The translations under genes and the position numbers were made by a program. Under the pieces are notes generated by a model. It ran no database searches, had not been told where the DNA came from, and saw nothing but the letters and a program-made list of their open reading frames with translations. Below, in pieces: positions 1 to 16,464 of a stretch of 22,173 nt of DNA (its first letter is position 1; each line of letters starts with the position of its first letter). The stretch is from a virus: IMG/VR virus record IMGVR_UViG_3300032217_001168, positions 1-22,173 of that record; one strand, 5' to 3'.

Positions 1-1
1 C

Positions 2-289
2 GAACTCAAACGACAAATTGAAGAGGGAGAAAAAAGTTGCATTGCTGGTAGCAGGCAAATCTTCTCAGAAGGCATCTCAGTCAACATCTTAAGTTGTGTA
101 ATTTTAGCAGGCCCAATTGCTAACGATGCACTACTAGAACAAATTGTTGGGCGCATACAACGTATGCATCCTGGCAAATTAGACCCACTAGTCATAGATA
201 TGAATTTTAGTGGACCAAGTGATAGAAAACAAAACAAGGATCGCCAAGCTTTTTATGCCCGCAAGGGTTGGGAAGTAACAGGCGCATAA
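2..289 (+). CDS. SF2 DNA/RNA helicase, C-terminal 95 residues (partial, 5' end outside window)
   Basis: The frame is open from the window edge to a TAA at 287-289 and encodes the end of a superfamily 2 helicase. Seen directly: a motif V-like segment GSRQIFSEGISV (fragment residues 16-27) and a motif VI-like segment QIVGRIQR (47-54), whose arginines are the family's ATP-sensing residues. The fragment ends in a short basic/aromatic tail (RQAFYARKGWEV). In phages this architecture fits the UvsW/DEAD-DEAH class that remodels branched DNA and stalled forks, which suits the neighbouring recombination genes. The N-terminal domain with the Walker motifs is not in the window, so UvsW-like versus another SF2 subfamily cannot be decided. 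The stop is followed after one base by the ATG of the next gene. Confidence 0.85.
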   Translation, partial: ELKRQIEEGEKSCIAGSRQIFSEGISVNILSCVILAGPIANDALLEQIVGRIQRMHPGKLDPLVIDMNFSGPSDRKQNKDRQAFYARKGWEVTGA

Positions 290-290
290 T

Positions 291-503
291 ATGTATTTAA
301 CATTTACAAACGCAAGCCCTGCACATAAAGGTAATAAGGTAGCAATACACAGAGACCTTATTTTAACAGTACATGAAGCGATGGTAACACGAGATGATGA
401 AACACTAGAAATGGTTACTTTTATCTTTGGCCCGCCACATGGAACATGGGAAGTTACAGAATCACTAGAAGAAGTAGTAGCCATACTAAATGATTTAGCA
501 TAA
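291..503 (+). CDS. Small conserved-looking phage protein of unknown function (70 aa)
   Basis: Starts one base after the helicase stop (TAATATG), so it is probably translated by coupling; no Shine-Dalgarno sequence lies at the usual distance. It encodes a compact, probably beta-rich protein: an opening strand MYLTFTNASPAHKGNKVAI, a central segment around HEAMVTRDDETLEMVTFIFGPP, then HGTWEVTESLEEVVAILNDL, which looks like a strand followed by a short helix. The last part loosely resembles the 'T-V-x-E-S-x-E-E-V' ending of small FlbD-like proteins, but this is too weak to assign. I believe similar ORFs occur in aquatic phages. No catalytic motif, membrane segment or signal peptide is visible. 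Role unknown, possibly accessory to the helicase. Confidence 0.7.
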   Translation: MYLTFTNASPAHKGNKVAIHRDLILTVHEAMVTRDDETLEMVTFIFGPPHGTWEVTESLEEVVAILNDLA

Positions 504-513
504 AATTTTGCAC

Positions 514-548
514 TTGCAAGTTTTTTCAAAGTTTGGTATAATACTATC
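514..548 (+). promoter_or_regulatory. Sigma70-type promoter P1 (extended -10), predicted leaderless start
   Basis: The -35 box TTGCAA is at 514-519, followed by a 17-base spacer and a perfect -10 TATAAT at 537-542 preceded by TGG (extended -10, TGnTATAAT). Initiation 7 bases after the -10 would fall on base 549, the A of the next gene's ATG, and no Shine-Dalgarno sequence lies upstream. The 11-mer TGGTATAATAC and the 6-base -10 to ATG distance recur exactly at 4865-4880. Confidence 0.8.
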
Positions 549-923
549 ATGGCAATATTCTTTAACTTACAAACTCTAGAAAACGAAGCTGGCAGTGATT
601 CTAATAAGTTTGTAGCACTACTTGAGTATCATTATTCAAAACGAGTGCCTTATAAATATTCCAAATATAAGCCTAGCAAAGTCCCACTAAACGGACACAG
701 TTATTTACTTAATCCAACAGAGTTATTTAGTGATAAATCAACAGATGTTTTATACAAAGTACAATACATAAAACTAGCAGCCCGTAGAGATTATAGTTTA
801 TATAAACTATACAATTATAAAGCACTACAACTATCGTATTACCCAGATATAGTATACGATGCAATTAAAACTAACCCGTTATTGAATATAACACAATCAG
901 AAATACTCTTTAAATACGAGTAA
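549..923 (+). CDS. Unknown phage protein, 124 aa, first gene behind promoter P1
   Basis: Encodes a tyrosine- and lysine-rich soluble protein without recognisable motifs, signal peptide or membrane helix. Visible segments are an N-terminal FVALLEYHYSKRVPYKY patch, a middle NGHSYLLNPTELF, and a C-terminal half with many aromatic and basic residues (ARRDYSLYKLYNYKALQLSYYPD) ending in ITQSEILFKYE. The many Tyr/Lys/Arg residues would suit nucleic-acid contact, but that is inference only. The ATG at 549 coincides with the predicted transcription start of P1 and has no Shine-Dalgarno sequence, so translation is probably leaderless. It precedes the ssDNA-binding protein gene by 26 bases, likely in the same transcript. 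I recall similar ORFs in aquatic phage genomes but know no function. Confidence 0.75.
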   Translation: MAIFFNLQTLENEAGSDSNKFVALLEYHYSKRVPYKYSKYKPSKVPLNGHSYLLNPTELFSDKSTDVLYKVQYIKLAARRDYSLYKLYNYKALQLSYYPDIVYDAIKTNPLLNITQSEILFKYE

Positions 924-949
924 TCTTTCATTAATCCAAGGATAAAACA

Positions 950-1582
950 ATGGCATTAGCATTTACAGCAACTAAAGGTAAAGCAGTTAAAAACTCTCAT
1001 GAGTCATACGTCTACAAAGACGGTGAAAATACAGTACGATTAGTGGGTGGAATTCTTCCACGCTATGTATACTGGTTAAAAGGCAGCAACAACAAAGATA
1101 TTCCAGTTGAGTGCTTGGCTTTTGATCGTGAAAAAGAAAAATTCACAAATGCAGAAGTAGATCATGTTCCTGCATATTTTCCTGATAAAAAGTGCTCATG
1201 GAGCTATAGTGTTAATGCACTAGTGGATGGTAAAGTAGTTGTGCTAAACCTAAAAAAGAAATTGTTTGAGCAAATTTGTTCAGCAGCAGAAGACTTAGGT
1301 GATCCAACTGATTACACAACAGGTTGGGACGTAGTGTTTAAGCGTTCTAAAACAGGCCCCCTGCCGTTTAATGTTGAGTATACCTTAAGCGTATTGCGTT
1401 GTAAAAAACGTGCACTAAGCAAAGACGAACTTGCCATTGTTGAAGCAGCCATTCCTATTGATGCTAAGTTTATTCGTGCTACTCCTGAAGAAGTAAAAAC
1501 TACTCTTGAGCGTATTACCAGTGGCGCTGAAGAAGAATCTGAAGGCGTTGATGGTGAAGCAGTTAGTGATTTAACTCAATAA
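950..1582 (+). CDS. gp32-like single-stranded DNA-binding protein (probable)
   Basis: 210 aa. The start is supported by AAGGA (from CCAAGGATAAAACAATG) about 8 bases upstream. The likely role is to coat ssDNA during replication and recombination and recruit partners through its tail. Seen: a basic N-terminus (TKGKAVKNSHES), a beta-rich core with strands such as NTVRLVGGILPRYVYWL, CSWSYSVNALVDGKVVVLNL and GWDVVFKRSKTGPLPFNVEY in an OB-fold-like arrangement, then a helix and a strongly acidic C-terminal tail (residues 191-210, EEESEGVDGE), the hallmark of phage and bacterial SSBs. T4 gp32 is about 300 aa with a zinc-binding segment; the four cysteines here do not form an obvious zinc pattern. 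The position beside gp46/47, flap nuclease and helicase genes supports the call. The gene is followed directly by an intrinsic terminator, consistent with high expression relative to downstream genes. Confidence 0.62.
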   Translation: MALAFTATKGKAVKNSHESYVYKDGENTVRLVGGILPRYVYWLKGSNNKDIPVECLAFDREKEKFTNAEVDHVPAYFPDKKCSWSYSVNALVDGKVVVLNLKKKLFEQICSAAEDLGDPTDYTTGWDVVFKRSKTGPLPFNVEYTLSVLRCKKRALSKDELAIVEAAIPIDAKFIRATPEEVKTTLERITSGAEEESEGVDGEAVSDLTQ

Positions 1583-1587
1583 AAAAT

Positions 1588-1620
1588 AGCCGCTATAGGT
1601 TTGCACTTATAGCGGCTTTT
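1588..1620 (+). terminator. Intrinsic terminator after the SSB gene
   Basis: A perfect 9-bp stem GCCGCTATA (1589-1597) pairs with TATAGCGGC (1608-1616) around a 10-base loop, followed by TTTT (1617-1620); an extra A1588-T1617 pair is possible. Six A residues lie just upstream. It lies inside the + strand gene run, 6 bases after the SSB stop, and ends 5 bases before the gp47 start codon, so it probably acts as an attenuator of the nuclease genes. Confidence 0.85.
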
Positions 1621-1625
1621 ACATT

Positions 1626-2582
1626 ATGAAAATACTATTTACAGCAGACATACACATTAAACTGGGGCAAAAAAATGTTCCAGTTGAGTGGGCTAAGAAT
1701 CGTTATGCTATGTTTATTCAACAACTTGCTGAACATAGTGCAGATTGCGATTTATTAGTACTAGGCGGAGACGTATTTGATCGTATGCCTACAATGGATG
1801 AACTAGAAGTTTATTTTGATTTAGTTGCTTCCATTTCAATTCCTTGTGTTATTTACGCAGGTAATCACGAAGCTTTGAAAAAAGACACTACTTTTTTTAG
1901 TTTTTTAAAGAAAAGTACTCAACGGCTTAATAGTTTAGTCACAGTTATTGATGACTATCACAGCATTAATAATATGGATTTTATTCCGTACAACAAACTA
2001 AAAGATTTTGAAAAATCACCACACTTAACACACGGCAACGTTTGCTTTACACACGTTCGCGGAGAAATTCCACCACACGTTAAACCTGAAATTGATCTTA
2101 GTTTATTAGATCGTTGGGACGTAGTACTAGCAGGTGACCTACACAGTTACGAAAATTGCCAACGTAATATTCTTTATCCTGGTAGCCCTTGCACTACTAG
2201 CTTTCATAGACATAATGTAGATACTGGCGTTATTATATTTGATAATATTACTCTTGAACATAGTTGGGTTAAATTACAGCTTCCGCAACTAATACGCAAA
2301 ACTATTCAGGCAGGTGAGGATATGCCTGCCACAGACTATGATCACACCATTTATGAAATTGAAGGTGACATGAGCGCGCTTGGCGCCATGGCTGATAATA
2401 GTTTGATTGATAAAAAAGTGGTAAAACGAGAAACAGATACAGCCCTTATACTAGACCCTAGTATGACACTTGCTGCTGAACTACAAGAGTATTTACTTTA
2501 TATCCTACAACTACCAGATAATACTGTGCTAGATATTTTACAAGTATTAAATAACAACATGGATAAAATTGCACTAGAATGA
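1626..2582 (+). CDS. 47: gp47-like recombination nuclease subunit (SbcD/Mre11 family)
   Basis: 318 aa metallophosphoesterase, the nuclease half of the gp46/47 (SbcCD, Mre11-Rad50) complex that resects double-strand ends for phage recombination. All family motifs are visible in order: DIH (residues 8-10), GGDVFDR (47-53), GNHE (79-82), a histidine in FTHVRGEIPP (H143), and GDLHS (170-174) followed by PGSP (185-188). These supply the Asp/His/Asn ligands of the two-metal site. The C-terminal 120 residues are the less conserved capping/Rad50-contact region. Length is close to T4 gp47 (about 340 aa). The gene overlaps its partner by ATGA at 2579-2582, as expected for a stoichiometric complex. No good ribosome-binding site precedes the ATG: the upstream region is occupied by the terminator hairpin. 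Confidence 0.95.
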   Translation: MKILFTADIHIKLGQKNVPVEWAKNRYAMFIQQLAEHSADCDLLVLGGDVFDRMPTMDELEVYFDLVASISIPCVIYAGNHEALKKDTTFFSFLKKSTQRLNSLVTVIDDYHSINNMDFIPYNKLKDFEKSPHLTHGNVCFTHVRGEIPPHVKPEIDLSLLDRWDVVLAGDLHSYENCQRNILYPGSPCTTSFHRHNVDTGVIIFDNITLEHSWVKLQLPQLIRKTIQAGEDMPATDYDHTIYEIEGDMSALGAMADNSLIDKKVVKRETDTALILDPSMTLAAELQEYLLYILQLPDNTVLDILQVLNNNMDKIALE

Positions 2583-4393
2583 TTATCTTTGAAGAAATTA
2601 GATGGGGCAATGCATTTTCCTACGGCCCTAATAATAAAATCAGATTAGACGGTACTCCGCTAACGCAAATTGTAGGAAAAAATGGTCATGGCAAAAGTTC
2701 AATTGCGCTAATTATTGAAGAAGTACTATTTAATCAAAATTCAAAAAAGATTAAAAAGTCAGATATTCTTAATCGTTATTCAAAAGATAAAAATTACACA
2801 ATTGAATTAGATTTTAATAAAGATGGAACAAAATATAATGTTGCAGTTAGTAGAACAGGTACTGCTAGTAATATTAAACTTACTCGTGACAGTATTGATA
2901 TTAGCAGCCACACTGCCACTGGCACTTATAAAACTCTTGAACAAATTCTTGGTTTTGACCATAAAACGTTTAGTCAAATTGTTTATCAAAGTTCGGTTTC
3001 GTCACTAGAGTTTTTAACTGCCACAGATACAGCTCGTAAAAAGTTTCTTATTGAATTACTAAACCTAACAGTTTATACACGTGCAGCTGATGTGTTCAAA
3101 GAATTAACTAGTGGAATGACTAAACAAGTTGAATCTGCTCAAACTAAGATCAATACTGTTCGTGCTTGGTTAAACAAGTATGAAAAAGAAGATTTAACCA
3201 TTCGTGAATTAGCAGATGAACCTGCACAACCAACAGACGCAATTAATGAATTAACACTTGTCAACAATGAATTAAAAAACATCGAGTTTACAAACAAAAG
3301 AATTACTGCTAATAATAAATATCGAGAATTATTTGAAAATACTGTAGCAAAATCTATTTTAGCTCCTGTTACTTTATCGAACTCTGATGAATGGCACACA
3401 GATCAAAAAATCAAGCTAGCAGCATTGCAAAGTCAATTAAAAAATGGTAAAGCCTTGGCAGCTAAATGTGACGGGCCAACCAGTAAATGTCCTACTTGCA
3501 CTCAAACAATTGACAATAGTACAATGTACCATATGGTTGAAGAGTTTGAGGCCAGCAAAATTAATTTATTAACAGAAATTGATGAAATAACTAAAATTAT
3601 AGCAACAGAAACTAAGCTAAAAGCAGAGTGGGATAAATATAATGAATATATTCTAGAAATAGAAAAATATCATTATTTAATTGACAAAGACCTAACAACT
3701 ACTTTACTAGATAAAAATGACCTAGAAAGCAAAGTTACTGCACTAGAAAAATCAATTTCAACTGTTAATAGTATAATTTCTAAAGTCAAAGCTAGTAATA
3801 AAACGATCACTGAACATAATTCTAAAGCTGCTGTTATATCTGCTCAAATGCAAGATATGAAAACTGAACTAGAAACACATACTGTTGATTTACTAGATAA
3901 AGCTAGTCAACTATCTAATTTGCAAGTTCTAGTAAAAGCTTTTTCCACTACAGGTTTAGTTGCCTATAAAATAGAATGTTTAGTTAAAGATCTAGAAGAA
4001 CTTACTAATGAGTACCTTAACGAACTTGCAGATGGCAGATTTCAGCTATCTTTTAAAATTGCATCATCGGATAAATTAAATGTTGTTATTACTGACAATA
4101 GCCATGACGTGGATATCCTTGCTCTTTCTAGCGGGGAGCGTGCTAGGGTTAACGTTGCTACTTTGCTTGCTATTCGTAAACTTATGCAAACGTTATCTAA
4201 TAGCCGTACAAATCTACTTATTCTCGATGAAACAGTGGAAAACTTGGATAGTGAAGGCAAAGAACGTCTTATTGAAGTTTTACTTAAAGAAGAAAACTTA
4301 AACACTTTTCTTATATCACACGGTTTTTCTCATCCATTACTAGAAAAACTTCAGGTAGTAAAAGAGAAAAATATATCAAGGATAGAACTATAA
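2579..4393 (+). CDS. 46: gp46-like recombination ATPase subunit (SbcC/Rad50 family)
   Basis: 604 aa SMC-like ATPase, partner of gp47. Walker A is GKNGHGKSS (residues 33-41); two coiled-coil arms (about 170-470) flank a zinc-hook CPTC (C304-C307) by which two molecules join; the ABC signature is LSSGERARV (516-524); Walker B is LLILDETVENLD (546-557), including the catalytic E551, and a D-loop/H-loop region with LISHGF follows. The arms are short compared with cellular SbcC/Rad50 (about 1000-1300 aa) and similar in size to T4 gp46 (about 560 aa). The start overlaps the gp47 stop (ATGA), and its TAA shares one base with the ATG of the next gene (TAATG at 4391-4395), so the three genes are translationally coupled. 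Function: ATP-driven opening of DNA ends to the gp47 nuclease. Confidence 0.95.
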   Translation: MIIFEEIRWGNAFSYGPNNKIRLDGTPLTQIVGKNGHGKSSIALIIEEVLFNQNSKKIKKSDILNRYSKDKNYTIELDFNKDGTKYNVAVSRTGTASNIKLTRDSIDISSHTATGTYKTLEQILGFDHKTFSQIVYQSSVSSLEFLTATDTARKKFLIELLNLTVYTRAADVFKELTSGMTKQVESAQTKINTVRAWLNKYEKEDLTIRELADEPAQPTDAINELTLVNNELKNIEFTNKRITANNKYRELFENTVAKSILAPVTLSNSDEWHTDQKIKLAALQSQLKNGKALAAKCDGPTSKCPTCTQTIDNSTMYHMVEEFEASKINLLTEIDEITKIIATETKLKAEWDKYNEYILEIEKYHYLIDKDLTTTLLDKNDLESKVTALEKSISTVNSIISKVKASNKTITEHNSKAAVISAQMQDMKTELETHTVDLLDKASQLSNLQVLVKAFSTTGLVAYKIECLVKDLEELTNEYLNELADGRFQLSFKIASSDKLNVVITDNSHDVDILALSSGERARVNVATLLAIRKLMQTLSNSRTNLLILDETVENLDSEGKERLIEVLLKEENLNTFLISHGFSHPLLEKLQVVKEKNISRIEL

Positions 4394-4848
4394 TGGCAGT
4401 AGACCCCCGAGCCAAAGGAGCCCGAGCCGAGACCACAATTCGTGATCAGCTTCGCAAACTCACAAACTTGCAGTGGGAACGGGTACCCAGCTCAGGTGCC
4501 TTAGACCCTAAACATGGGCTAAAAGGAGATCTTTATGTACCTGGTGAAAAGAATCTTTATTCGGTAGAAGTTAAACATTATGAAGAAGATCATTTAACTA
4601 GCGCAATCTTAACAGGCAAGAGCCCACAATTCTTTGAATGGTGGGCTCAAGCTGTGCGTCAGGGTGCTCAGGTAAATAAAATTCCCTTGTTAATATTTAA
4701 ACACGACCGATCAAAGGTATTTTGTGCCTTTGAAGATATGCCTAGCGGTGAGTACAGATATTTCTTTATCAATGCATTGGCATACGAAGTATATGTATCA
4801 CTACTAGACGATTTTGTGACACACGAAGCACCAAAATTTATAGCTTGA
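4393..4848 (+). CDS. PD-(D/E)XK endonuclease, Holliday-junction-resolvase-like
   Basis: 151 aa. The arrangement matches the archaeal Hjc-like branch of the PD-(D/E)XK fold: an N-terminal basic helix KGARAETTIRDQLRK with conserved E13, then WERVPSSGALD, then KGDLYV with D46, a turn, and VEVKHYEE giving the E59-x-K61 pair. These are the residues that hold Mg2+ and catalyse phosphodiester cleavage in the family. The size is typical for resolvases. The second half (FEWWAQAVRQG...IPLLIFKHDRSKVFCAFE) is also common in this fold. Being coupled to gp46 by TAATG and lying near a flap nuclease fits a role in cutting four-way or branched recombination intermediates, as T4 gp49 does with a different fold. 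The alternative is a generic restriction-like or VRR-type nuclease. Fold call strong, substrate inferred. Confidence 0.78.
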   Translation: MAVDPRAKGARAETTIRDQLRKLTNLQWERVPSSGALDPKHGLKGDLYVPGEKNLYSVEVKHYEEDHLTSAILTGKSPQFFEWWAQAVRQGAQVNKIPLLIFKHDRSKVFCAFEDMPSGEYRYFFINALAYEVYVSLLDDFVTHEAPKFIA

Positions 4849-4879
4849 CCCACAGCTGCAAAAGTGGTATAATACACAC
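4845..4879 (+). promoter_or_regulatory. Sigma70-type promoter P2 (extended -10), predicted leaderless start
   Basis: The -35 box TTGACC (4845-4850, overlapping the end of the nuclease gene), a 17-base spacer, and extended -10 TGGTATAAT with TATAAT at 4868-4873. Six bases then separate it from the ATG at 4880, so initiation is predicted at the start codon itself. No Shine-Dalgarno sequence is present. Box spacing and the -10 to ATG distance are identical to promoter P1 at 514-548. Confidence 0.85.
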
Positions 4880-5731
4880 ATGACTAAAACTTTTCAACAA
4901 ATAAATACCAGCAATGATCATTCACTAATGATTGTTGATTCACTAAATTTAGCTTTTCGCTATAAACATTCAGGGGCAGTTGATTTTTGCACAGACTATA
5001 TGCGTACAGTAGACAGTCTTCGTAAATCTTATAAATCTACTAAACTTATTATAGCTGGAGACATGGGCGCATCAAGCTATCGCAAAGGTTTATACCCCGA
5101 ATACAAGCAGAATCGCAAAGATAAGTACGCAGATCAAACTGAAGCAGAGAAAGAAGCTTTTGAATTATTCTTTGAAGAAGTTCAAAACATATTAATTCAA
5201 TATGAATCAGATGGTAAATATCCAGTTGTTCGTTTCCAAGGTGTTGAAGCAGACGATATTGCTGCGTACATTGTTAGTAAACGCAAAAAATTCAATCTTG
5301 AGCAAATCTGGCTTATCTCCAGTGACAAAGACTGGGATTTGCTTGTTTGTCCTGGTGTATCACGATTTAGCTATGTAACACGCAAAGAAGTAACACATGA
5401 TAATTGGCACGAACATTATGATTTTGATGTTGATAGTTATATTAGCATTAAGTGTCTTATGGGTGACTCAGGAGATAATGTGCCTGGTGTACCCGGAGTT
5501 GGCCCTAAAAAGGCTGCTAGTTTGGTCGAAGAATACGGCTCAGCCTATGACATTATTGCGGCGTTGCCTATTAGCAGCAAGTATAAGTATATTGCTAATC
5601 TTAATAATTTTGGCAGTGCTGGGCTTATGTTGAATTACCAGTTAATGGATTTAGTTACACACTGCAAAGATGCAATCGGTGAAGAAAATTGCAAACAATT
5701 AGATACAATACTGGAGAATTATCTTGTTTGA
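4880..5731 (+). CDS. Flap 5'-3' exonuclease (T4 RNase H / T5 D15 / Pol I 5'-nuclease family)
   Basis: 283 aa. Removes RNA primers and 5' flaps during lagging-strand synthesis. Metal-binding residues are recognisable in order: D20 in IVDSLNLAFR, D61 in IIAGDMG, the basic arch segment around R68-R79 (YRKG...YKQNRK), E123-A-D-D126, D149 and D151 in SSDKDWD, and D196/D199 in MGDSGDNVPGVPGVGPKKAA, which also forms the helix-3-turn-helix DNA-binding motif. Length matches the phage family (about 290-305 aa). The start ATG at 4880 lies exactly at the predicted start of the P2 transcript. The 3' end overlaps the TTG start of the dUTPase by 8 bases, so P2 probably drives exonuclease, dUTPase and reductase together. 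Confidence 0.93.
   Translation: MTKTFQQINTSNDHSLMIVDSLNLAFRYKHSGAVDFCTDYMRTVDSLRKSYKSTKLIIAGDMGASSYRKGLYPEYKQNRKDKYADQTEAEKEAFELFFEEVQNILIQYESDGKYPVVRFQGVEADDIAAYIVSKRKKFNLEQIWLISSDKDWDLLVCPGVSRFSYVTRKEVTHDNWHEHYDFDVDSYISIKCLMGDSGDNVPGVPGVGPKKAASLVEEYGSAYDIIAALPISSKYKYIANLNNFGSAGLMLNYQLMDLVTHCKDAIGEENCKQLDTILENYLV
5713..5726 (+). promoter_or_regulatory. Ribosome-binding site that decides a TTG start for dUTPase
   Basis: GGAG at 5713-5716 is followed by a 7-base spacer and TTG at 5724-5726. The next in-frame ATG (codon 14) would remove the first beta strand of the dUTPase fold, so TTG is the likely start. Confidence 0.75.
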
Positions 5732-6173
5732 TGTAGTAGTTAGATTAAATGATGTTAGAGCAATGCCAGTTCGGGCACATCCAACTGATGCAGGTGCAGA
5801 TTTATTTAGTATGGAAAATGTAGATATTTATCCAGGCGAAACTAAATTAATAGATACTGGTGTGTGCGTCAAAATTCCCGCAGGTTATGTTGGATTAGTA
5901 TATAATCGATCATCGCAAGGTAAAATTCATGTTGTAATTCCTCATAGTGTAGGCGTTATTGACAGTGATTATCGTGGTGTTATTAAAGTTTTGTTAATGA
6001 ACCAAGGCGAAGATCCTTATAAAATTGCACGATTTGATACACGAATTGCTCAACTTGTGATTACACCAATTTTACTGCCTAATTTTATAGGATGGGCAGA
6101 TACTGGTAAATGGGAAGATACAGAACGTGGTGTCGGCGGTTATGGCAGCACAAATAATAAAGGAAATAAATGA
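5724..6173 (+). CDS. dut: Deoxyuridine 5'-triphosphate nucleotidohydrolase (dUTPase)
   Basis: 149 aa homotrimeric-type dUTPase, hydrolysing dUTP to dUMP and pyrophosphate, which keeps uracil out of phage DNA and feeds dTMP synthesis. The five family motifs are visible: DAGADLFS (residues 22-29), NRSSQGK (61-67), GVIDSDYRG (77-85, with D80 the expected catalytic Asp and Y83 in the uracil pocket), RIAQLVI (107-113), and the C-terminal RGVGGYGST (135-143), where the usual Phe that stacks on uracil is Tyr. The start is a TTG with a good GGAG site; it overlaps the exonuclease end by 8 bases. Its own end overlaps the reductase start (ATGA at 6170-6173). Length is typical. Confidence 0.93.
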   Translation: MFDVVVRLNDVRAMPVRAHPTDAGADLFSMENVDIYPGETKLIDTGVCVKIPAGYVGLVYNRSSQGKIHVVIPHSVGVIDSDYRGVIKVLLMNQGEDPYKIARFDTRIAQLVITPILLPNFIGWADTGKWEDTERGVGGYGSTNNKGNK

Positions 6174-8128
6174 CAGCAAGTACAAGAGCACAAGTAATTA
6201 CACGAAGAACCTATAACAGACCTCTCTCAGATGATGGTAAAACATTTGAAACATGGGAACAAACAGTTGCCCGTGTAATTGATCATCAACAATGGTTATG
6301 GGAACGCGCAGCTAAACGTGAGCTGCTAGATACAGAATTTGCAGAATTATATGACTTAGAGCAATTAATGTTAGACCGTAAAGTATCTATGAGTGGTCGA
6401 TCACTTTGGTTAGGTGGTACAACAGTTGCACAAAAACGAGAAGCATCACAGTTTAATTGTAGTTTTACACAAGTTGAAACAGTTTACGATCTTGTAGACG
6501 TGTTATGGTTGTTATTACAAGGTTGCGGTGTTGGATTTAAACCAGTAGTAGGAACACTAAATGGTTTTACAAAAGCCATTAAAAATATTCGTGTAGTGCG
6601 TTCAACACGTACTGAAAAAGGTGGACTTGAACATAATGTAGAAACATTTGTCGACGGCGTATGGACTATTAAAGTAGGTGATAGTGCTGAAGCTTGGGCT
6701 AAATCTATTGGTAAGCTAATGGCTGGCAAATATGCTGCTAAAGAACTAGTTTTAGACTTTAGTGAATTACGTCCTGCGGGCGAAAGGTTAAAAGGCTATG
6801 GTTGGATTAGTAGTGGGGATAGTGCTATTAGCACTGCTTATGTCGCTATTGCAAAAATTCTCAATGGACGCGCTGATAGCCTTCTTACACGCATGGATAT
6901 TTTGGATATTGTTAATTGGCTTGGGACCATTCTTAGCAGTCGTCGTAGTGCTGAAATTGCTCTTTTCGAGTATGGTCAGCCTGAGTGGGAAGAGTTTGCA
7001 GTGGCTAAAAAAGATTGGTGGTTAACTGGCAATAGTCAACGTCAACAATCTAATAATTCATTAGTATTTAAAGAAAAACCATTATATGAAGACCTTCGAA
7101 AAATCTTTGATCTTATGGAAGATGCCGGCGGATCAGAACCTGGATTCATTAACGCAGTGGAAGCTACAAGACGAGCACCTTGGTTTTCAGGATGCAACCC
7201 CTGTGTGGAAATCTTACTGGGAAATAAATCCTTCTGTAATCTCACTGAAACTGATATCGGAAAGTTTAAAGGAAATACCGCTGGGTTACATGAAGCTATC
7301 AGACTTGCTGCCAGAGCAAATTACCGCCAAACTTGTGTGGACTTAAACGATGGAATCTTACAAGAAAGTTGGCATCTTAATAATTATTTTCTTCGGTTAT
7401 GCGGCGTTGGCCTTACTGGTATTGCCATGCGTCCTGACATGGGTGGTTACGACTACGAGTTTCTCAAAAGAACTGCTACTGCTGCTGCCATTGGTATGGC
7501 TGATGAGCTTAACTTACCTAAACCGAAAAACATAACTTGTGTTAAACCATCAGGAACTCTTAGCAAAATCATGGATACCACAGAAGGTATTCATAAACCC
7601 CTAGGTAAATATATTTTTAACAATGTACAGTTCAGTAAATACGACCCTGTTGTCGATAAATTGCGTGCTGCCAACTATAATGTTATTAATCATCCAACGG
7701 ATGATAGTGGTGTGTTAGTTACTTTTCCCGTTAGATGGGACAATGTTCCGTTTGCTAAAGTAAATGGAAAAGAAGTTAATCTTGATTCTGCTATAGATCA
7801 ACTTGAAAAATACAAGTTAATTCAAACTAGCTGGACACAGCAAAATACTTCTGTTACTATCTCCTACTCACTAGATGAAGTAGAAGATATTATTCAGTGG
7901 TTGTTGCATAATTGGGATTGTTATGTTGGTGTAAGTTTCTTATATCGTACCGATCCTAGTATGACAGCAAAAGACCTTGGTTATCTGTACCTTCCACAAG
8001 AAGTTGTAGATGAACATACTTATAATGACTACGTCATTACCTTAAAACCAGTTGATTTAAATGAAACTAATAGTTTCGACGAAATCATTGGTGATGAATG
8101 TGCAACGGGCGCTTGCCCCATTAAATAA
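6170..8128 (+). CDS. nrdJ: Class II adenosylcobalamin-dependent ribonucleoside-triphosphate reductase
   Basis: 652 aa monomeric, RTPR-type enzyme that reduces ribonucleotides to deoxyribonucleotides using a cobalamin-derived thiyl radical. Cysteines fit the Lactobacillus leichmannii pattern: C97 (FNCSF) and C356 (SFCNLTET) as the reducible pair, C345 in NPCVEI as the radical site with E347 nearby (C345 to C356 is 11 residues, the same as C408-C419), and the C-terminal shuttle pair C644/C649 (CATGAC) three residues from the end, as in RTPR. Further family segments are LQGCGVGFKPV, CGVGLTGIAMRPD, VKPSGTLSK and NTSVTISY. The protein is shorter than the 739-aa bacterial enzyme. A clear AAGGA lies 5' of the ATG, and the gene is coupled to dUTPase by ATGA. 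Activity would need host or environmental vitamin B12 and host thioredoxin, since no partner gene is visible here. Confidence 0.93.
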   Translation: MTASTRAQVITRRTYNRPLSDDGKTFETWEQTVARVIDHQQWLWERAAKRELLDTEFAELYDLEQLMLDRKVSMSGRSLWLGGTTVAQKREASQFNCSFTQVETVYDLVDVLWLLLQGCGVGFKPVVGTLNGFTKAIKNIRVVRSTRTEKGGLEHNVETFVDGVWTIKVGDSAEAWAKSIGKLMAGKYAAKELVLDFSELRPAGERLKGYGWISSGDSAISTAYVAIAKILNGRADSLLTRMDILDIVNWLGTILSSRRSAEIALFEYGQPEWEEFAVAKKDWWLTGNSQRQQSNNSLVFKEKPLYEDLRKIFDLMEDAGGSEPGFINAVEATRRAPWFSGCNPCVEILLGNKSFCNLTETDIGKFKGNTAGLHEAIRLAARANYRQTCVDLNDGILQESWHLNNYFLRLCGVGLTGIAMRPDMGGYDYEFLKRTATAAAIGMADELNLPKPKNITCVKPSGTLSKIMDTTEGIHKPLGKYIFNNVQFSKYDPVVDKLRAANYNVINHPTDDSGVLVTFPVRWDNVPFAKVNGKEVNLDSAIDQLEKYKLIQTSWTQQNTSVTISYSLDEVEDIIQWLLHNWDCYVGVSFLYRTDPSMTAKDLGYLYLPQEVVDEHTYNDYVITLKPVDLNETNSFDEIIGDECATGACPIK

Positions 8129-8134
8129 ACTATT

Positions 8135-8320
8135 ATGAACGAAAATCCAGATTTACACTTTACTTTTACTATGCAAGAAGCAAACGCTGTTCTTGCAGCA
8201 TTACAAGAACTACCTGCTAAAATTAGTAATCCGCTTAGCAAAAAGATGACAGATCAAGCCACTGAGCAGATTGAAAAAATCAAAGCAGACATGGCTTCAG
8301 ATGTAACTGACGTAGAATAA
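8135..8320 (+). CDS. Small helical phage protein of unknown function (61 aa)
   Basis: Lies 6 bases after the reductase stop and ends at the terminator. The sequence begins with a short strand (DLHFTFTMQEANAVLAAL), followed by ELPAKISNPLSKKM and an amphipathic, charged helix (TDQATEQIEKIKADMASDV). No motif, membrane segment or cofactor site. I recall very similar 'FTFT..EAN.VL.AL.ELP.K' proteins in other aquatic phages, so it is probably a real conserved gene, but no function is known to me. A role linked to the reductase or to DNA metabolism would be guesswork. Confidence 0.72.
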   Translation: MNENPDLHFTFTMQEANAVLAALQELPAKISNPLSKKMTDQATEQIEKIKADMASDVTDVE

Positions 8321-8357
8321 AAAAAGCCCCGTAATTGCAAGATTACGGGGCTTTTTT
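8320..8357. terminator. Bidirectional intrinsic terminator between convergent operons
   Basis: A 10-bp stem GCCCCGTAAT (8326-8335) pairs with ATTACGGGGC (8342-8351) around the loop TGCAAG; six A on the left (8320-8325) and six T on the right (8352-8357) extend the pairing and give a U-tract in both directions. It sits between the last + gene (stop ends at 8320) and the last - gene (stop at 8365) and should stop both transcripts. Confidence 0.93.
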
Positions 8358-8364
8358 ATTTGTT

Positions 8365-8736
8365 TTATTTTTTTCGGGCTAATTCGTAGTAGATGGCAAT
8401 AGCTTTGCCTTCACGAACATTCATAATATGATTGCGTTTTTCTGTGGACCAACTAAATCCACCATCTCCGCCCCACATATCCCAAGCAACACGACCTTTA
8501 CTTGGAAAACCTTCTTCACCACTATTAAATCCAGTAGCTTGTTTGTCTACTTCATGGCGGCTAAAAAAACTATACATACGTAGTACTGTATCTTCGCTTA
8601 GTGGTTCGCGGTCTTTTAATTGATTAGCTCGCGATAATCCTACTAGTGTACCACCTGGATGACCTTCTTCATGCCATTTTAATGCACGACGGGCAGCACT
8701 AGCCATGCCCTCTGTTGGTTTATATGTTTCTGCCAT
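8365..8736 (-). CDS. Conserved phage protein of unknown function (123 aa), last gene of the late block
   Basis: The start has a clear AAAGGA 8 bases upstream. Visible segments: MASAARRALKWHEEGHPGGT, a helix then GLSRANQLKDREPLS, MYSFFSRHEVDKQATGF, and EGFPSKGRVAWDMWGGD. This 'AARRAL.WHEEG ... GL.RA.QL..R..LS ... M.SFF.RHEVDK ... G.P..GRVAWD.WGGD' pattern recurs, from memory, in many tailed-phage proteins annotated only as hypothetical, often near packaging or head genes. The conserved His, Asp and Arg positions suggest a folded functional domain rather than a disordered one, but no activity is established. It follows PhoH by 8 bases and ends at the shared terminator. Confidence 0.8.
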   Translation of the reverse strand: MAETYKPTEGMASAARRALKWHEEGHPGGTLVGLSRANQLKDREPLSEDTVLRMYSFFSRHEVDKQATGFNSGEEGFPSKGRVAWDMWGGDGGFSWSTEKRNHIMNVREGKAIAIYYELARKK

Positions 8737-8744
8737 AATATCCT

Positions 8745-9458
8745 TTAATTGCGATACGCCATGATTATCTTTTTACAAATAGCAGAGCGTACAATATCTT
8801 CGTCTAAGAAATCGATAATTTCGATTCCGCTAATTCCTTGTAGTCGATTTACTGCATCCTCCAATCCAGAATCTGGAATATCAGATTGTTCAGTGTCACC
8901 ACTAAAAATCATTTTGCAACCTTTGCCAATACGACTAAGCAACATTTTCATTTCTTCGCGTGTGCAATTTTGAGCTTCATCAACTAAGACAATGCAGTCA
9001 TCAAAAGTAGTACCACGTAAAAAGCCTAGTGGAGTAGGTTCAATGTCTTTGTTTTTCAAACAATATTCATAAAACCCTTTACCTAGTGCACGAGTAAAAA
9101 TACTGTCAAACGGTAGTAAGTACGGAGCATACTTTTCTTCTAGTGTTCCAGGTAAAAAACCCAGTCCACGGCCTGTTTCCACATTGGGTCGTGTTAAAAT
9201 AATTTTTTGAACACGGCGGTGAAATAGTTCCGAAGCCGCATAGCTAGCCGCAATATACGTTTTACCCGTACCCGCGCTACCAATACCAAACACGATGTCG
9301 TTGTGTTTAATTGCATCTAAGTATTCTCCTTGTATAAAATTTAAAGGTTGTACTTCCTTAAATTTATAGTTGGAAGTATACGGATTTCTAGCATGAAAAA
9401 CTTCCTCCTCAACTTCTTGTCTTTGACGAGTACGTTTACTACTATTATTTCTTGCCAT
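8745..9458 (-). CDS. phoH: PhoH-like P-loop ATPase
   Basis: 237 aa. Walker A is GSAGTGKT (residues 60-67), and Walker B is CIVLVDEAQN (about 154-163), followed by the sensor segment KMIFSGDTEQSD. The motif ILTRPNVETGRGLGFLPG and the phrase EEKYAPYLLPF are diagnostic of the PhoH family, an SF1-helicase-like ATP-binding core. The N-terminal 35 residues are charged and probably flexible. phoH is common in marine phages; links to phosphate starvation are debated and RNA-related roles have been proposed, so the role here is open. No Pho-box-like sequence was recognised. The ribosome site AAAGG overlaps the stop of the upstream 57-aa gene, indicating coupling. Confidence 0.93.
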   Translation of the reverse strand: MARNNSSKRTRQRQEVEEEVFHARNPYTSNYKFKEVQPLNFIQGEYLDAIKHNDIVFGIGSAGTGKTYIAASYAASELFHRRVQKIILTRPNVETGRGLGFLPGTLEEKYAPYLLPFDSIFTRALGKGFYEYCLKNKDIEPTPLGFLRGTTFDDCIVLVDEAQNCTREEMKMLLSRIGKGCKMIFSGDTEQSDIPDSGLEDAVNRLQGISGIEIIDFLDEDIVRSAICKKIIMAYRN

Positions 9459-9466
9459 AAATACCT

Positions 9467-9640
9467 TTATTTGGTTACTTTTTTAGACACGTGCTTTTTG
9501 TGCACTTTTACTTGTTTGCATTTTTTCTTTACACAAACTTGTTTTGTCTTTGATTTTTCCTTTGTAACCTCTGCAGCTTGCGCATTAATACACAATGCTG
9601 GCGCAATGCATAAACACAAACTTAAAATAAATTTTTTCAT
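9467..9640 (-). CDS. Small secreted lysine-rich peptide (57 aa) with signal peptide
   Basis: A short gene: ATG at 9640, TAA at 9467-9469. AGAGGA lies about 7 bases upstream, and the start shares one base with the stop of the preceding gene (TAATG). The N-terminus is a textbook signal peptide: KK, a hydrophobic core FILSLCLCIAPALCI, and an AxA cleavage site NAQA-AE after about residue 22. The mature 35-residue part is very basic (KEKSKTKQVCVKKKCKQVK, then HKKH and SKKVTK) with two cysteines (C36, C41) that could form a disulfide in the periplasm. I recall similar peptides ending in 'K.VKVHKK' in other aquatic phages. Function is unknown. Its place between lysis-associated membrane proteins and phoH hints at an envelope role. 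Confidence 0.75.
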   Translation of the reverse strand: MKKFILSLCLCIAPALCINAQAAEVTKEKSKTKQVCVKKKCKQVKVHKKHVSKKVTK

Positions 9641-10131
9641 TAAAATCCTCTGTTAGTAATTACATGAAATGTAATGCTTATTAGTGGTACGATAATAGCT
9701 AAACATCCACTAATCCATAAAGTATTCATGACCAAGGCTGCTTTTGCCTCCCTGTCTCGATGTTTTCGATCTTCTTCTTCTTGTCGTAATTTTGCTCGCT
9801 CTTTGGCCATACGCGCACGTTCAGCCATCATTTCTTGCCAAACTTCTGCGTTGCCTGAGTAGAATAGTAGGTCTTTTAATTCCTTTTCATGTTGTCGTAA
9901 AGCCTTAGAAGCCATTGCAATTTTTAATGCTTCTGAGTTAATTTGAGCATCACTTTTATGCAGACTAGCCATTTTCATTTCTGTGCTAGCAGCGTGTACT
10001 TCATCTGCTGCACGATAAAATTGACTGAACTCTCCAATTAAACCATGTATATCTTTTCCTAGAGCTACCGCGGCTTTGATACCTTCAACAGCTCCTTGAG
10101 CTAACGCAAAAGCTGTGAATGGATCTATCAT
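9640..10131 (-). CDS. Coiled-coil protein with C-terminal membrane anchor (163 aa), unknown function
   Basis: The N-terminal part MIDPFTAFALAQGAVEGIKAAVALG is a hydrophobic, Ala-rich amphipathic helix. Long helical stretches follow (residues 40-90), then a strongly charged heptad-like helix rich in Arg/Glu/Lys (97-130, QEMMAERARMAKERAK and EEEDRKHRDREAK) and one membrane segment at about 133-157 near the C-terminus. This topology would place a cytoplasmic coiled coil on the inner membrane. Homologous ORFs are, I believe, widespread in aquatic podo- and myovirus genomes without a function. It has the strongest ribosome-binding site in the late block. Being next to spanins and an EF-hand membrane protein suggests a membrane or lysis-timing role, or an internal virion protein; undecided. 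Confidence 0.8.
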   Translation of the reverse strand: MIDPFTAFALAQGAVEGIKAAVALGKDIHGLIGEFSQFYRAADEVHAASTEMKMASLHKSDAQINSEALKIAMASKALRQHEKELKDLLFYSGNAEVWQEMMAERARMAKERAKLRQEEEDRKHRDREAKAALVMNTLWISGCLAIIVPLISITFHVITNRGF

Positions 10132-10134
10132 CTT

Positions 10135-10141
10135 ACCTCCT
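10135..10141 (-). promoter_or_regulatory. Near-perfect Shine-Dalgarno sequence
   Basis: AGGAGGT on the - strand, three bases before the ATG at 10131 and overlapping the stop codon of the upstream gene (10140-10142). It is the best ribosome-binding site seen in the window, suggesting high translation of the 163-aa membrane protein. Confidence 0.8.
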
Positions 10142-10520
10142 ATAGCGCAGGTTGTTGTGCTACAGGCACTACGGTTTTCTTATACACAGGTGCTGGTGCA
10201 CTTTTCATGCTTGCAAAAGCTTCTTTACCATAAAATGCTGCTACAATTGCTGCCACCGACACAAAATAAGTTGGCGCCATATCACCTAAAATTTTAGCTG
10301 CTGTATCTAAATGTATGTATGTGGCTAACACAACAGCAAATGGGTATAGCAACATTCCAAATAGTGCAAACCAAGCCATGTTACGTTGCGCATCTTGACG
10401 TGCATCTTCATTTTCTAGTTCTATTAATTGTTGATCCATTAAGAATTCACTATCACTAACAGTACCATCACCATCTAAGTCATATTTTTCATATTCGGAG
10501 TTTGGTTGTAGTTTTTTCAT
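10140..10520 (-). CDS. Membrane protein with one EF-hand calcium-binding loop (126 aa)
   Basis: Near the N-terminus is a canonical 12-residue EF-hand loop DLDGDGTVSDSE (residues 14-25), with Asp/Asp/Asp at positions 1, 3 and 5, Ser at 9 and Glu at 12. A charged helix follows (about 29-47), then two membrane segments (about 48-70 and 82-98) and a Pro/Ala/Val-rich tail. With the N-terminus in the cytoplasm or periplasm the loop could sense Ca2+ at the membrane; a single dockerin-like loop is also possible. Two-helix topology and position in the lysis region make a holin or antiholin-like role conceivable, but a better holin candidate exists at 11465-11686. It is coupled to the upstream gene by ATGA (10517-10520). 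Confidence 0.82.
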   Translation of the reverse strand: MKKLQPNSEYEKYDLDGDGTVSDSEFLMDQQLIELENEDARQDAQRNMAWFALFGMLLYPFAVVLATYIHLDTAAKILGDMAPTYFVSVAAIVAAFYGKEAFASMKSAPAPVYKKTVVPVAQQPAL

Positions 10521-10765
10521 TTTTTGGCATCCCTTGAACTAACAGAGTTTGAAGGCTCCCGAGGTTTAACAACAGGAGGTGGGGGTAATACAGGTTTAGG
10601 AATCTGAACACATACAGCTTTTATTTGAGGGTTTAATTGCTGGGTTTTAATTTCACTAATAGTTTTTAAACACGCAGATTCTTCTGGAAAATTGCCAACA
10701 TATTGTATAGTTGGAGTAATTAACCCAAAGCTAATTAATACAATTGTCCATATATAATCCGGCAT
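10517..10765 (-). CDS. Small membrane-anchored proline-rich protein (82 aa), unknown function
   Basis: The N-terminal hydrophobic stretch (residues 4-22, YIWTIVLISFGLITPTIQY) is a membrane anchor or uncleaved signal. Then come a short segment with two cysteines (C32 and C52, possible periplasmic disulfide) and a proline-rich part (VQIPKPVLPPPPVVKPREP) ending in a charged tail. It lies 3 bases after the o-spanin-like gene and overlaps the EF-hand gene by ATGA. The layout suggests a third envelope-spanning component beside the spanin pair; no family is recognised. Confidence 0.72.
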   Translation of the reverse strand: MPDYIWTIVLISFGLITPTIQYVGNFPEESACLKTISEIKTQQLNPQIKAVCVQIPKPVLPPPPVVKPREPSNSVSSRDAKK

Positions 10766-10768
10766 AGT

Positions 10769-11029
10769 TTACTCACTTTCAAATATACTTTTTTGTTTTT
10801 GATACCAATCTAGCCATGCTGAATTTTTTGCACTACACTCATGATATAATGTGTAGTTATCGGTAACAGTTTTTGTGTAGTCAATTATGCTTATACGATC
10901 ACCTGTAAGTTGTTTTAAATTTTTACAAGGTTCTTGCAATAACTCAGGTGCCGTAGGAAAATTCCTAGCAACAGGCACTGTGGTAGAACAACCAGCTAAA
11001 AATAATAGTAGTATTAAAACTAATTTCAT
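10769..11029 (-). CDS. Outer-membrane lipoprotein, Rz1-like o-spanin
   Basis: 86 aa. A lipoprotein signal peptide with lipobox LAGC ends at C14, which should become the lipid-modified N-terminus; Ser15 at +2 predicts outer-membrane sorting. The mature part (about 73 aa) contains PTAPELLQEPCKNLKQL and a C-terminal helix around YTLYHECSAKNSAWLDWYQKQ, a pattern I recognise from phage Rz1-like proteins. It would pair in the periplasm with the i-spanin encoded just upstream and fuse the two membranes at the last step of lysis. The two genes overlap by ATGA at 11026-11029, a separated rather than embedded Rz/Rz1 arrangement. Cysteines C35 and C65 may allow disulfide linkage. Confidence 0.82.
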   Translation of the reverse strand: MKLVLILLLFLAGCSTTVPVARNFPTAPELLQEPCKNLKQLTGDRISIIDYTKTVTDNYTLYHECSAKNSAWLDWYQKQKSIFESE

Positions 11030-11463
11030 TTTGTTGCCTCATTGTGAGCGTTAACAATAATATTAGGAATTTCACAGTTTTCTATGAATTGTATGACTTC
11101 TTGATCACGTACTACTTCACGATCAATGTACTTTGTAATAGTATCACCACGTTCACGAATTACTTGAATTTGTTTTACAGTTTGGGTAACTATTTCAGTG
11201 TTAGTTACAGCAGACTTGGCTTCGGCTACAAGAACGCGTTTTTGTAGTTCTGCAATTTTGGCTTCCCACTGTTTGTCATTTTCAATACCACCTTGAAACC
11301 ATACCGCCGCTACAGTTAAACATAGTGATGCTAACTGTAGCGGTAATTGGTAGGTGTTTATAAGTGGCACAAATTTAACAAAGTAACTTGCAACTAAACC
11401 TAATATACCTATAACAAGTACTACATCAAATACCCAATAAGGGAATAGTGTTAAGAGCCACAT
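11026..11463 (-). CDS. Inner-membrane i-spanin (Rz-like)
   Basis: 145 aa with hydrophobic segments at about residues 4-30 and 37-58, followed by a long periplasmic coiled coil (about 62-125, containing WEAKIAELQKRVLVAEAKSA, then VTQTVKQIQVIRERGDTITKYI). This membrane-anchor plus coiled-coil architecture, directly followed by a lipoprotein gene, is the signature of two-component spanins. The presence of two hydrophobic segments rather than one is a variation; the first could be an extra anchor. AAGGA lies 8 bases upstream of the ATG. The protein would span from the inner membrane to contact the o-spanin at 10769-11029. Confidence 0.8.
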   Translation of the reverse strand: MWLLTLFPYWVFDVVLVIGILGLVASYFVKFVPLINTYQLPLQLASLCLTVAAVWFQGGIENDKQWEAKIAELQKRVLVAEAKSAVTNTEIVTQTVKQIQVIRERGDTITKYIDREVVRDQEVIQFIENCEIPNIIVNAHNEATK

Positions 11464-11464
11464 A

Positions 11465-11686
11465 TTAGTCCTTGTCTTCGTTTCTTAATTTGATACCTGC
11501 TAATAAACCAATAAACCCACCTATTACGGTTTGAAAAGCTGGGCTTATTAATTTAAAAATTTCAGCATTATCTACAAGTGGATCAAATAGGCCAACCATT
11601 AATGTTGCTACCATACAGAGAATAACCGCGCACAGTGTCATTGTAACCATAGTGGTTACCACAAATGTTAACTTAGTTTTTTCCAT
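11465..11686 (-). CDS. Holin-like small membrane protein (73 aa)
   Basis: Charged N-terminus (MEKTK), membrane segment 1 at about 8-33 (VVTTMVTMTLCAVILCMVA), a short loop with acidic residues (DPLVDNAEIF), membrane segment 2 at about 46-66 (AFQTVIGGFIGLLAGIKL) and a charged tail RNEDKD. Two helices plus a charged C-terminus fit class II holins, which make the holes that release endolysin. The endolysin gene immediately upstream lacks a signal peptide and so needs such a partner. Junctions are tight: TAAATG on the 5' side and one spare base before the i-spanin gene. Assignment rests on topology and position, not on sequence similarity. Confidence 0.72.
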   Translation of the reverse strand: MEKTKLTFVVTTMVTMTLCAVILCMVATLMVGLFDPLVDNAEIFKLISPAFQTVIGGFIGLLAGIKLRNEDKD

Positions 11687-12301
11687 TTAGACACCTAGTA
11701 CTTCTTTGATATGTTCGTAGTGTTTAACACGATCTTCTAGTCCAATATAACCGCCATTAATACGTTTAGTCATAGCTTTAATATCGCCAGTATCAGCTAG
11801 TGAATTAAGATCATTACACTCCCAAAACCAGCAAGCACTTTGTACAGCACCTGCAAATGTTGCTAAATACTCTGGCATTTCTTCAAGCGGAGTTTCAATT
11901 GAATCCGCAAAGCTAAGGTAGTTGTCGTGACCAGTTAATTGAATTAATCCACGTCCACAATAACGGTAGCCATCACCTGAAGCTTCTGAGCCATTGCCCA
12001 TGCGGTTAGCATACACACGATTAGCAATCTTTTCAGGTTGATGAGCATAGGCTTCAGCTAGGTCGCTAGTAGGAAAGTATTTGGGGAATACTTTTTGTAG
12101 GCTAGCTGCTTTGTAGTTTAAGTTTTCTTTAATTGCAGAGAATCCGCCGGACTCGTGCACGCATTGTGCAAGAAACGCGGCAATTCGTTCTGCGGTATTA
12201 ATTTCATATTCTGGTAGAATAGCAATTAGGGCCTCATGCCAATCTGCCAAATTTGTGTTATTTGGCAAGATTTGCTTTAGCTGATGTAGTGTTAAGTCCA
12301 T
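11687..12301 (-). CDS. GH19-type endolysin (chitinase-fold lysozyme)
   Basis: 204 aa. Hydrolyses the beta-1,4 bonds of peptidoglycan. The GH19 core is visible: FLAQCVHESGGF with catalytic acid E50, the second acidic region around E59 (SAIKENLNYKA), then YANRMGNGSEASGDGYRYCGRGLIQLTGHDNY, which is the diagnostic GRG-x-IQLTG motif (115-123) preceded by the G-D-G-x-x-Y-x-G loop. The C-terminal segment (FAGAVQSACWFWECNDLNSLAD and ITKRINGG-like MTKRINGGYIG) is also typical. No signal peptide, so export depends on the holin downstream. Length fits single-domain phage GH19 endolysins. Overlaps the upstream gene by TAATG. Confidence 0.93.
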   Translation of the reverse strand: MDLTLHQLKQILPNNTNLADWHEALIAILPEYEINTAERIAAFLAQCVHESGGFSAIKENLNYKAASLQKVFPKYFPTSDLAEAYAHQPEKIANRVYANRMGNGSEASGDGYRYCGRGLIQLTGHDNYLSFADSIETPLEEMPEYLATFAGAVQSACWFWECNDLNSLADTGDIKAMTKRINGGYIGLEDRVKHYEHIKEVLGV

Positions 12302-12657
12302 TACTGTGTTTCAATCCAGTTTACTGTAGCTTCATCCCACATATACATTTTTCCATCTGTGGGCATAGCCACAGGTGCTGTCCAATTACAAGTTTCTTCG
12401 TTTAATACCCAGCTTGCAAACGGTTTAGGCGGAATAAAAGCATTTCTGGTTTCATCAAATGAGTAACCAATTCCAGCATAGTTCTTACGAAAATTACCGT
12501 TATAGCTAGTTTGTTTCCATGTGCCACCAAACAAACGTTCGCAAAAAGCTTGTCCAATATATTCTTTTTCTGTACCGTCAGCACTGGCGGTATCTGCATT
12601 GCTTACAACGATAACTTGTGTAACAACGCCGTCTTCAATTTTAGCAAAATGTGCCAT
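12301..12657 (-). CDS. Tail accessory protein, 118 aa, of a type found after phage tail fibres
   Basis: Tryptophan- and aromatic-rich soluble protein: MAHFAKIEDGVVTQVIVVSN, FCERLFGGTWKQTSYNGNFR, KNYAGIGYSFDETRNAFIPP, FASWVLNEETCNWTAPV, then MYMWDEATVNWIE. The repeated 'W-x-W/D-E-x-x-x-x-W' segments look like small beta hairpins. I recall near-identical architecture in many cyanophage and aquatic phage proteins in the fibre neighbourhood, usually annotated hypothetical or tail-associated. It probably decorates or helps assemble the fibre, but no biochemical role is known to me. It sits next to the endolysin (TAATG overlap at its end) and directly abuts the preceding 75-aa gene (TAAATG-type junction). 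Confidence 0.78.
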   Translation of the reverse strand: MAHFAKIEDGVVTQVIVVSNADTASADGTEKEYIGQAFCERLFGGTWKQTSYNGNFRKNYAGIGYSFDETRNAFIPPKPFASWVLNEETCNWTAPVAMPTDGKMYMWDEATVNWIETQ

Positions 12658-12885
12658 TTAATTATTTCCTGTAATTTTGTTAATAAACTCGCTATCCCAA
12701 ATTGTGGGTATAGACTCCTCAAACGCCTTGATTTTTTCCATTGTTTCGGTGATCTCCGTCCAAGTTGGACATGGACGAAGATCATCCCAACGTGTTATGT
12801 TGCTATTGGTTATTTCCCACTTAGCATTTGGTCGGAGTAATTGCATTGCTGTTTCAATGCCATAAAGTTGATAAATTTGTGTCAT
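12658..12885 (-). CDS. Small XkdW-like tail accessory protein (75 aa)
   Basis: Starts with IYQLYGIETAMQLLRPNAKWEI, followed by TRWDDLRPCPTWTEITETME and an acidic helix ending IPTIWDSEFINKI. The 'W-x-x-x-x-P-x-P-T-x-x-E-I' segment resembles the C-terminal part of XkdW-type proteins found downstream of phage and prophage tail fibre genes. This is a motif-level resemblance only. It is coupled to the large glycine-rich fibre upstream by ATGA (12882-12885), as expected for a fibre accessory or assembly factor. Confidence 0.72.
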   Translation of the reverse strand: MTQIYQLYGIETAMQLLRPNAKWEITNSNITRWDDLRPCPTWTEITETMEKIKAFEESIPTIWDSEFINKITGNN

Positions 12886-15155: not shown

Positions 15156-15526
15156 TATGCAAACGCCTGTGCTATGGAACCGTACCAGTATGTACCATCA
15201 CTAACAAAAGTTAAGATATCCCAACGACTTGCAGTAGTAGTAATTGTAGGCGCAGTTCCACCAGCATACTTAACACCGGTAAATGTGCCTGTAAACGAAC
15301 CTGCACCAGTGCTTAAGATTAGGGTAAATGATTTACCCGCACTTACAGTAGGCATTGTAAAAGTACAATTACCTGTAAGCGTGCAAGTTTGTAGTGTGCC
15401 GTTTGTTAATGAAATTGTTTGTGCAGTGCCGCTATTTCCAATAGCTACCACACCTTCTGTGTATTGACCACTCAGGGTTAGGTTATTAGTAGTTAACCCA
15501 TTGGTTCCGTCCATTACGATTGCCAT
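15155..15526 (-). CDS. Tail fibre tip-type protein (123 aa)
   Basis: Begins with MAIVMDGTNGLTTNNLTLSG, a phrase typical of the distal parts of phage fibres, then beta-rich segments ISLTNGTLQTCTLTGNCTFT, GKSFTLILSTGAGSFTGTF, KYAGGTAPTITTTASRWDIL and TFVSDGTYWYGSIAQAF. The last two are a recurrent C-terminal fibre motif: an Ala-Gly-Gly-x-x-P turn and a 'TSDGTYWYG' ending. It is a stand-alone short gene rather than the end of a long fibre. The ribosome site is weak (AAAGAAAG about 6 bases upstream of the ATG). Presumably a virion tip or decoration subunit; the exact place in the particle is unknown. Shares one base (TAATG) with the glycine-rich fibre downstream. Confidence 0.8.
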   Translation of the reverse strand: MAIVMDGTNGLTTNNLTLSGQYTEGVVAIGNSGTAQTISLTNGTLQTCTLTGNCTFTMPTVSAGKSFTLILSTGAGSFTGTFTGVKYAGGTAPTITTTASRWDILTFVSDGTYWYGSIAQAFA

Positions 15527-16454: not shown

Positions 16455-16464
16455 TAGTGCTCCT

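Follow-up and report, generated by a model that had tools for sequence, protein, structure and literature searches.

Does a phage promoter that ends only six bases before a start codon yield an mRNA that begins at that codon? The question was raised by the first lines of a 22,173-nucleotide virus record (IMG/VR IMGVR_UViG_3300032217_001168, the whole of which is called the window here). On its plus strand, the -35 hexamer TTGCAA (514 to 519) is separated by 17 bases (520 to 536) from the TATAAT of an extended -10 element, TGGTATAAT (TGG+TATAAT, 534 to 542), and the six bases ACTATC (543 to 548) then lead into the ATG (549 to 551) of a 124-aa gene (phrog_4258, 549 to 923). The first-pass annotation had described this promoter, P1, as TTGCAA-N17-TGGTATAAT-N6-ATG549, and its coordinates proved exact on direct reading. 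Its remark that the gene lacks a Shine-Dalgarno (SD) sequence, while the starts at 950, 6170, 8736, 10131 and 16454 have one, held as well: no SD 4-mer was seen upstream of 549, and all five of the other starts carry an SD. Since the start site favoured by RNA polymerase lies 7 bp downstream of the -10 element, at a purine preceded by a pyrimidine (PMC5730371), the expected transcription start is the A of ATG549 (position 549), which is the seventh base past the -10 and follows a pyrimidine, and the gene is predicted to be leaderless.

Such a prediction depends on the start codon, which, judged from the sequences, is secure: ATG549 is the only ATG in the 124-aa frame, the sole GTG and TTG are codons 33 and 112, and the initial methionine is invariant in 22 homologues. 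The second gene of the P1 unit, encoding a gp32-like single-strand DNA-binding protein (SSB; 950 to 1582, plus strand), is led by an SD, and the unit appears to end at an intrinsic-terminator-like hairpin (1588 to 1617, plus strand). The SbcD-like gene that follows starts at ATG1626, 9 bases past this hairpin and also without an SD; in T5, too, a terminator immediately precedes the D12 gene. For the 124-aa product, structure prediction gives a compact fold (pLDDT 93); the protein had no Pfam match, neither its sequence nor its fold had a relative in the PDB, and its relatives were T5-like phage proteins only.

The surroundings of P1 are those of a T5-like phage, with genes for a helicase (D10), X, SSB, SbcD, SbcC, a resolvase, a flap endonuclease and dUTPase in that order; the arrangement D10-X-SSB-D12-D13-D14-D15-dut with homologous proteins, by which membership of the Demerecviridae was judged, is present. 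A 70-aa open reading frame lies at 291 to 503, between the helicase end and P1, and elsewhere in the window the minus strand of 12882 to 20428 holds long, glycine-rich, repetitive frames of tail-fibre-like composition. When positions 1 to 20000 were scanned for promoters that match 10 or more of the 12 hexamer bases and have the TG extension, only two sites passed, P1 and a second one, P2; in both, exactly six bases separate the -10 from the start ATG of a conserved gene. P2, the best promoter in the window, consists of TTGACC (4845 to 4850, plus strand), 17 bases, and again TGGTATAAT (4865 to 4873), six bases before ATG4880 of a T5 D15-like flap endonuclease gene (4880 to 5731, plus strand), which is likewise predicted to be leaderless and is not preceded by an SD; the P2 unit likely ends at another intrinsic-terminator-like hairpin (8320 to 8357, plus strand). 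P1 had been presented as a lone exception, a view that does not survive this second case (4865 to 4882) and the many that a search for the -10-N6-ATG layout, proposed by the same annotation, brought up in related contigs. The stop codon of the preceding resolvase gene (4846 to 4848) falls within the -35 of P2, so that genome compaction is a plausible driver of the layout. With two strong promoters placed exactly six bases before start codons, the mRNAs are expected to begin at the ATG, without a leader. The motif TATAAT-N4-9-ATG by itself was neither rarer nor more frequent in the window than chance would have it (4 occurrences against 3.7 expected), so that it is the full promoters, together with the comparison with relatives, that give the layout its significance.

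The comparison gave a divided answer at P1. The 124-aa protein is encoded at twelve loci, with 64-100% identity, and the promoter was kept in all of them, while its distance from the ATG was not: it is N6 in the window and in L003-L007, N20 with a clear SD (AGAGAGG) in L008-L012 (69-70% identity), and N19 in L013 and L014. The CTTG core of the -35 was retained at all homologous loci and TGNTATAAT in all aligned homologues. In the alignment, L008-L014 lack the stretch 291 to 503, and the helicase end stands directly before the promoter. An iterated profile search for the 124-aa protein over the fetched loci gave 85 matches, and TATAAT was found 18-20 bases before the ATG in 40 of the 40 listed homologues that lie beyond the window's clade and include the upstream region, Vibrio phage pVp-1 among them; in L086 two TATAATs overlap, at N19 and N14. 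The first-pass annotation had held that absence of the spacing from homologous loci would speak against its reading: the N6 spacing is kept within the window's clade, but gives way to N18-20 in the 40 others. This distribution marks N6 as the derived state, produced by a loss of about 14 bases, with which the short leader went, in the window's clade only; conservation of N6 at P1 is therefore shallow. The reverse polarity, with N6 as the ancestral state, was ruled out by the homologues at N18-20. The pVp-1 homologue (L134, about 6849-7211, minus strand) reads as a protein of 120 aa and is preceded at N19 by a promoter of its own; since it is annotated as gp010 with 67 aa, the start of gp010 is probably misannotated.

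At the flap endonuclease the short distance is the property of a whole clade. Upstream of 80 endonuclease homologues TATAAT stood at N5/N6 in the window's clade and at N22-31 in most others, with a small clade at N10/N12, and in a tree of 58 endonuclease proteins all N5/N6 rows fell into one clade (SH-aLRT 92; 14 rows, two of them without TATAAT). The N-terminus of the protein is conserved among the homologues. The spacers of the clade (ACACAC, ATACTC, ACACTC, AACTA, ATATAC, AACACT, ATCAAC, ATAAAA) vary in their letters and keep a constant length of 5-6, as expected if the distance is under selection.

Several other genes of the group were found in both states. NAD-dependent ligase A has N7 in G012, G014 (and its near copy G013), G015 and G021, with N31 in T5 and N26 in pVp-1; the phrog_8420 endonuclease has N7 in G014/G013 and N20-28 in G015, G021 and G024; the terminase small subunit has N6 in G009 and N16-31 in G012, G014, G018 and G021; a 74-aa gene has N6 in G012, G014/G013 and G015, and N24 with an SD in G008; and a kinase-like protein has N6 in G014 and N26-35 elsewhere. 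Distances of 8-15 were absent from these five orthologue sets. With this arrangement at several genes of the relatives and an ordinary short leader at others, the layout looks like a real, evolving mode of starting translation and not like a product of chance.

A family-wide count was made on ten contigs (681 kb), in which open reading frames were called by length only, near-identical sites were removed, and each distance was taken between TATAAT and the first in-frame ATG of the gene. The distribution was bimodal, with 19 sites at N6 and 8 at N7, few at N8-N18, and a broad leadered mode from N19. The 27 sites at N6/N7 compare with 23 at all other distances from 0 to 18 (P ~3e-18 in a Poisson test that assumes independent sites, some of the contigs being related), and when a -35 with at least 4 of 6 matches was required, 16 remained at N6/N7 against 9 (P ~4e-14). 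Five control hexamers gave no N6/N7 spike in the same ten contigs. The base before the ATG was a pyrimidine at 23 of the 27 N6/N7 sites versus 68 of 119 leadered ones (P 0.008), the baseline being 270 of 530 genes of at least 100 aa. In T5 (AY543070), pVp-1 and AhSzw-1, in a stretch of 100 kb each, none of 79 TATAAT sites lay at N6/N7 (P 3e-5). Near-consensus -10 hexamers (5 of 6 matches) gave no clear N6 spike, so that weak -10 elements are left uncounted. Several N6 sites without a good -35 were seen in G018 and G024 (e.g., L130 at 10000 and 11720); they share the context TTTTTTG(T/C)GC-TATAAT before small open reading frames and perhaps belong to a second promoter class.

Beyond the family, IMG/VR was searched with the pattern TTGAC-N15-TGNTATAAT-N6-ATG, and the rate at which the ATG opens a frame was compared with that of N10 and N3 versions, among the matches listed. 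In this sample the N6-ATG opened a frame of at least 60 aa at 66% of 128 sites, as against 32% for N10 and 26% for N3 (P 7e-11 versus N6), and a pyrimidine preceded the ATG in 72 of 84 open frames with N6 versus 29 of 63 with N10 or N3, again among the matches listed. Over all sampled IMG/VR loci, at least 97 N6 genes in at least 62 protein families were found.

Very probably, then, P1 and P2 are sigma70-type extended -10 promoters that give true leaderless mRNAs, leaderless and short-leader forms being two alternative states of one conserved promoter. Motif, spacing, bimodality, the derived state at P1 and the conserved start codon come from sequence and comparison. The sequence of events would be that the host sigma70 RNA polymerase starts at A549, and that the AUG-first RNA, terminated by the hairpin at 1588-1617, codes for the 124-aa protein and then, led by an SD, for the SSB; the P2 RNA would start at A4880 and probably run to the hairpin at 8320-8357. 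Ribosomes bind AUG-first mRNAs via the 5' AUG (PMC4965119), and translation would begin at this terminal AUG without SD pairing. The arrangement may have a regulatory use, such as the translation by intact 70S ribosomes under changed host conditions that the first-pass annotation suggested, or it may reflect compaction. Lineages would switch state by gaining or losing bases between the -10 and the ATG, intermediate leaders being rare. The RNA 5' end and initiation at the 5' AUG are what we infer from these features, and the leaderless prediction for 549 made in the first-pass annotation is well supported by the N6/N7 spike throughout the family, the pyrimidine-A initiator at an ATG that is the only one of its gene, the lack of such sites in the T5-like controls, and the second-locus spacer of conserved length and diverged sequence.

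How far might other accounts explain the same features? The promoters could be real and the RNA start slightly upstream (at A543 or A546, and at A4874-A4878), giving near-leaderless mRNAs with leaders of 1-6 nt and no SD. Both spacers do contain other purines, many promoters have start sites that vary within a few bases (PMC5730371), and the N10/N12 distances of the small endonuclease clade would fit; however, the sharp N6/N7 spike and the pyrimidine-A at the ATG indicate the ATG itself, and distances that would yield leaders of 1-11 nt are rare, which makes this account unlikely. It is highly improbable that the promoters serve mainly the downstream genes (SSB, dUTPase/reductase), the first gene being read from longer read-through RNAs and the position of its ATG being incidental. 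Same-strand upstream genes could supply read-through and the SSB start at 950 has its SD, but a longer RNA would offer no SD before 549 or 4880, the start at 549 is uncoupled from the upstream stop at 503, and the spacing spike would be left unexplained. As for chance, by which an AT-rich genome occasionally places TATAAT near an ATG, the count of the bare motif in the window would allow it, yet the retention of P1 in 40 further homologues and the family-wide spike with its controls already contradict it, and we regard it as extremely improbable.

The host in which these mRNAs would be read was approached through related contigs. Besides tRNAs, a permuted tmRNA is encoded in each of G014, G012 and G018. 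These tmRNAs match Rfam tmRNA_permuted, and those of G014 and G012 also match beta_tmRNA (RF01850) above threshold. The permuted beta-type tmRNA genes lie amid many tRNA genes (L098 3336-3760, L107 13486-13988, L120 19214-19603), with tag peptides such as ANDSQFALAA. The hosts of this T5-like phage group are thus probably betaproteobacteria, as we infer from these contigs rather than from the window. A minority of betaproteobacterial genes are leaderless, such genes being detectable in 9 of 71 genomes with a mean of 6.8% in those (PMC3160421). A scan for the host, over genome contigs with the endonuclease, gave two weak matches.

Phage leaderless mRNAs are known for few genes, mostly repressors. 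Leaderless mRNA as such has precedents (lambda cI, Deinococcus); that a phage group should use it routinely for replication genes appears to be unreported. The closest bacterial parallels are the ORF-adjacent -10 regions of Deinococcus-Thermus (PMC12340547) and the 'TA-led' leaderless genes (PMC3160421), in which the -10 lies about 12 bp upstream of the start, there is no SD, and the transcript is expected to begin at the ATG. At both ATG549 and ATG4880, TATAAT begins 12 bases upstream, within the ~10-12 bp of TA-led genes, and both have an authentic start codon and no SD before it, an absence that is partly forced at N6/N7 because the -10 fills that space. In contrast to these bacterial genes, the phage promoters have a full -35, a TG extension and orthologues that alternate with leadered forms, and they belong to a T5-like group whose host is probably betaproteobacterial. 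What they have in common with leaderless lambda cI (PMC4965119) is a phage gene whose transcript is predicted to start at the A of the AUG and to be read without an SD, but cI is a prophage repressor, whereas here replication and recombination genes at several loci are concerned and the prediction comes from sequence. A cI-type repressor identity was ruled out, the products being phrog_4258 and a flap endonuclease with no repressor match by sequence or fold. Mapped mRNAs of Lactococcus cremoris show bimodal leader lengths with an empty zone at 4-14 nt, attributed to incompatible initiation modes (PMC10986495); leaderless and leadered modes with a gap between them are common to both systems, although those are measured host transcripts and the phage leaders are deduced from promoter positions. 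In T5, the annotated promoters P31A/P31B before T5.125-D11 (AY543070) occupy the same syntenic place as P1, between the D10 helicase and SSB genes; they have long leaders, and none of 22 T5 TATAAT sites lies at N6/N7.

The architecture appears to be widespread among environmental viral contigs, and gene prediction that relies on an SD can put starts of this kind in the wrong place. If about one sixth of the group's consensus promoters make leaderless mRNA, with orthologues in both forms and rare intermediates, the group would offer a natural experiment on shifts between initiation routes. More tentatively, and with considerable doubt, the phage group may, via length changes at fixed promoters, switch its core replication genes from leaderless to SD-led mRNAs and back, an architecture that would recur in many environmental phages, and may thereby keep part of its genome on an initiation route of its own, one that would remain active in an infected host with reduced canonical 30S initiation.
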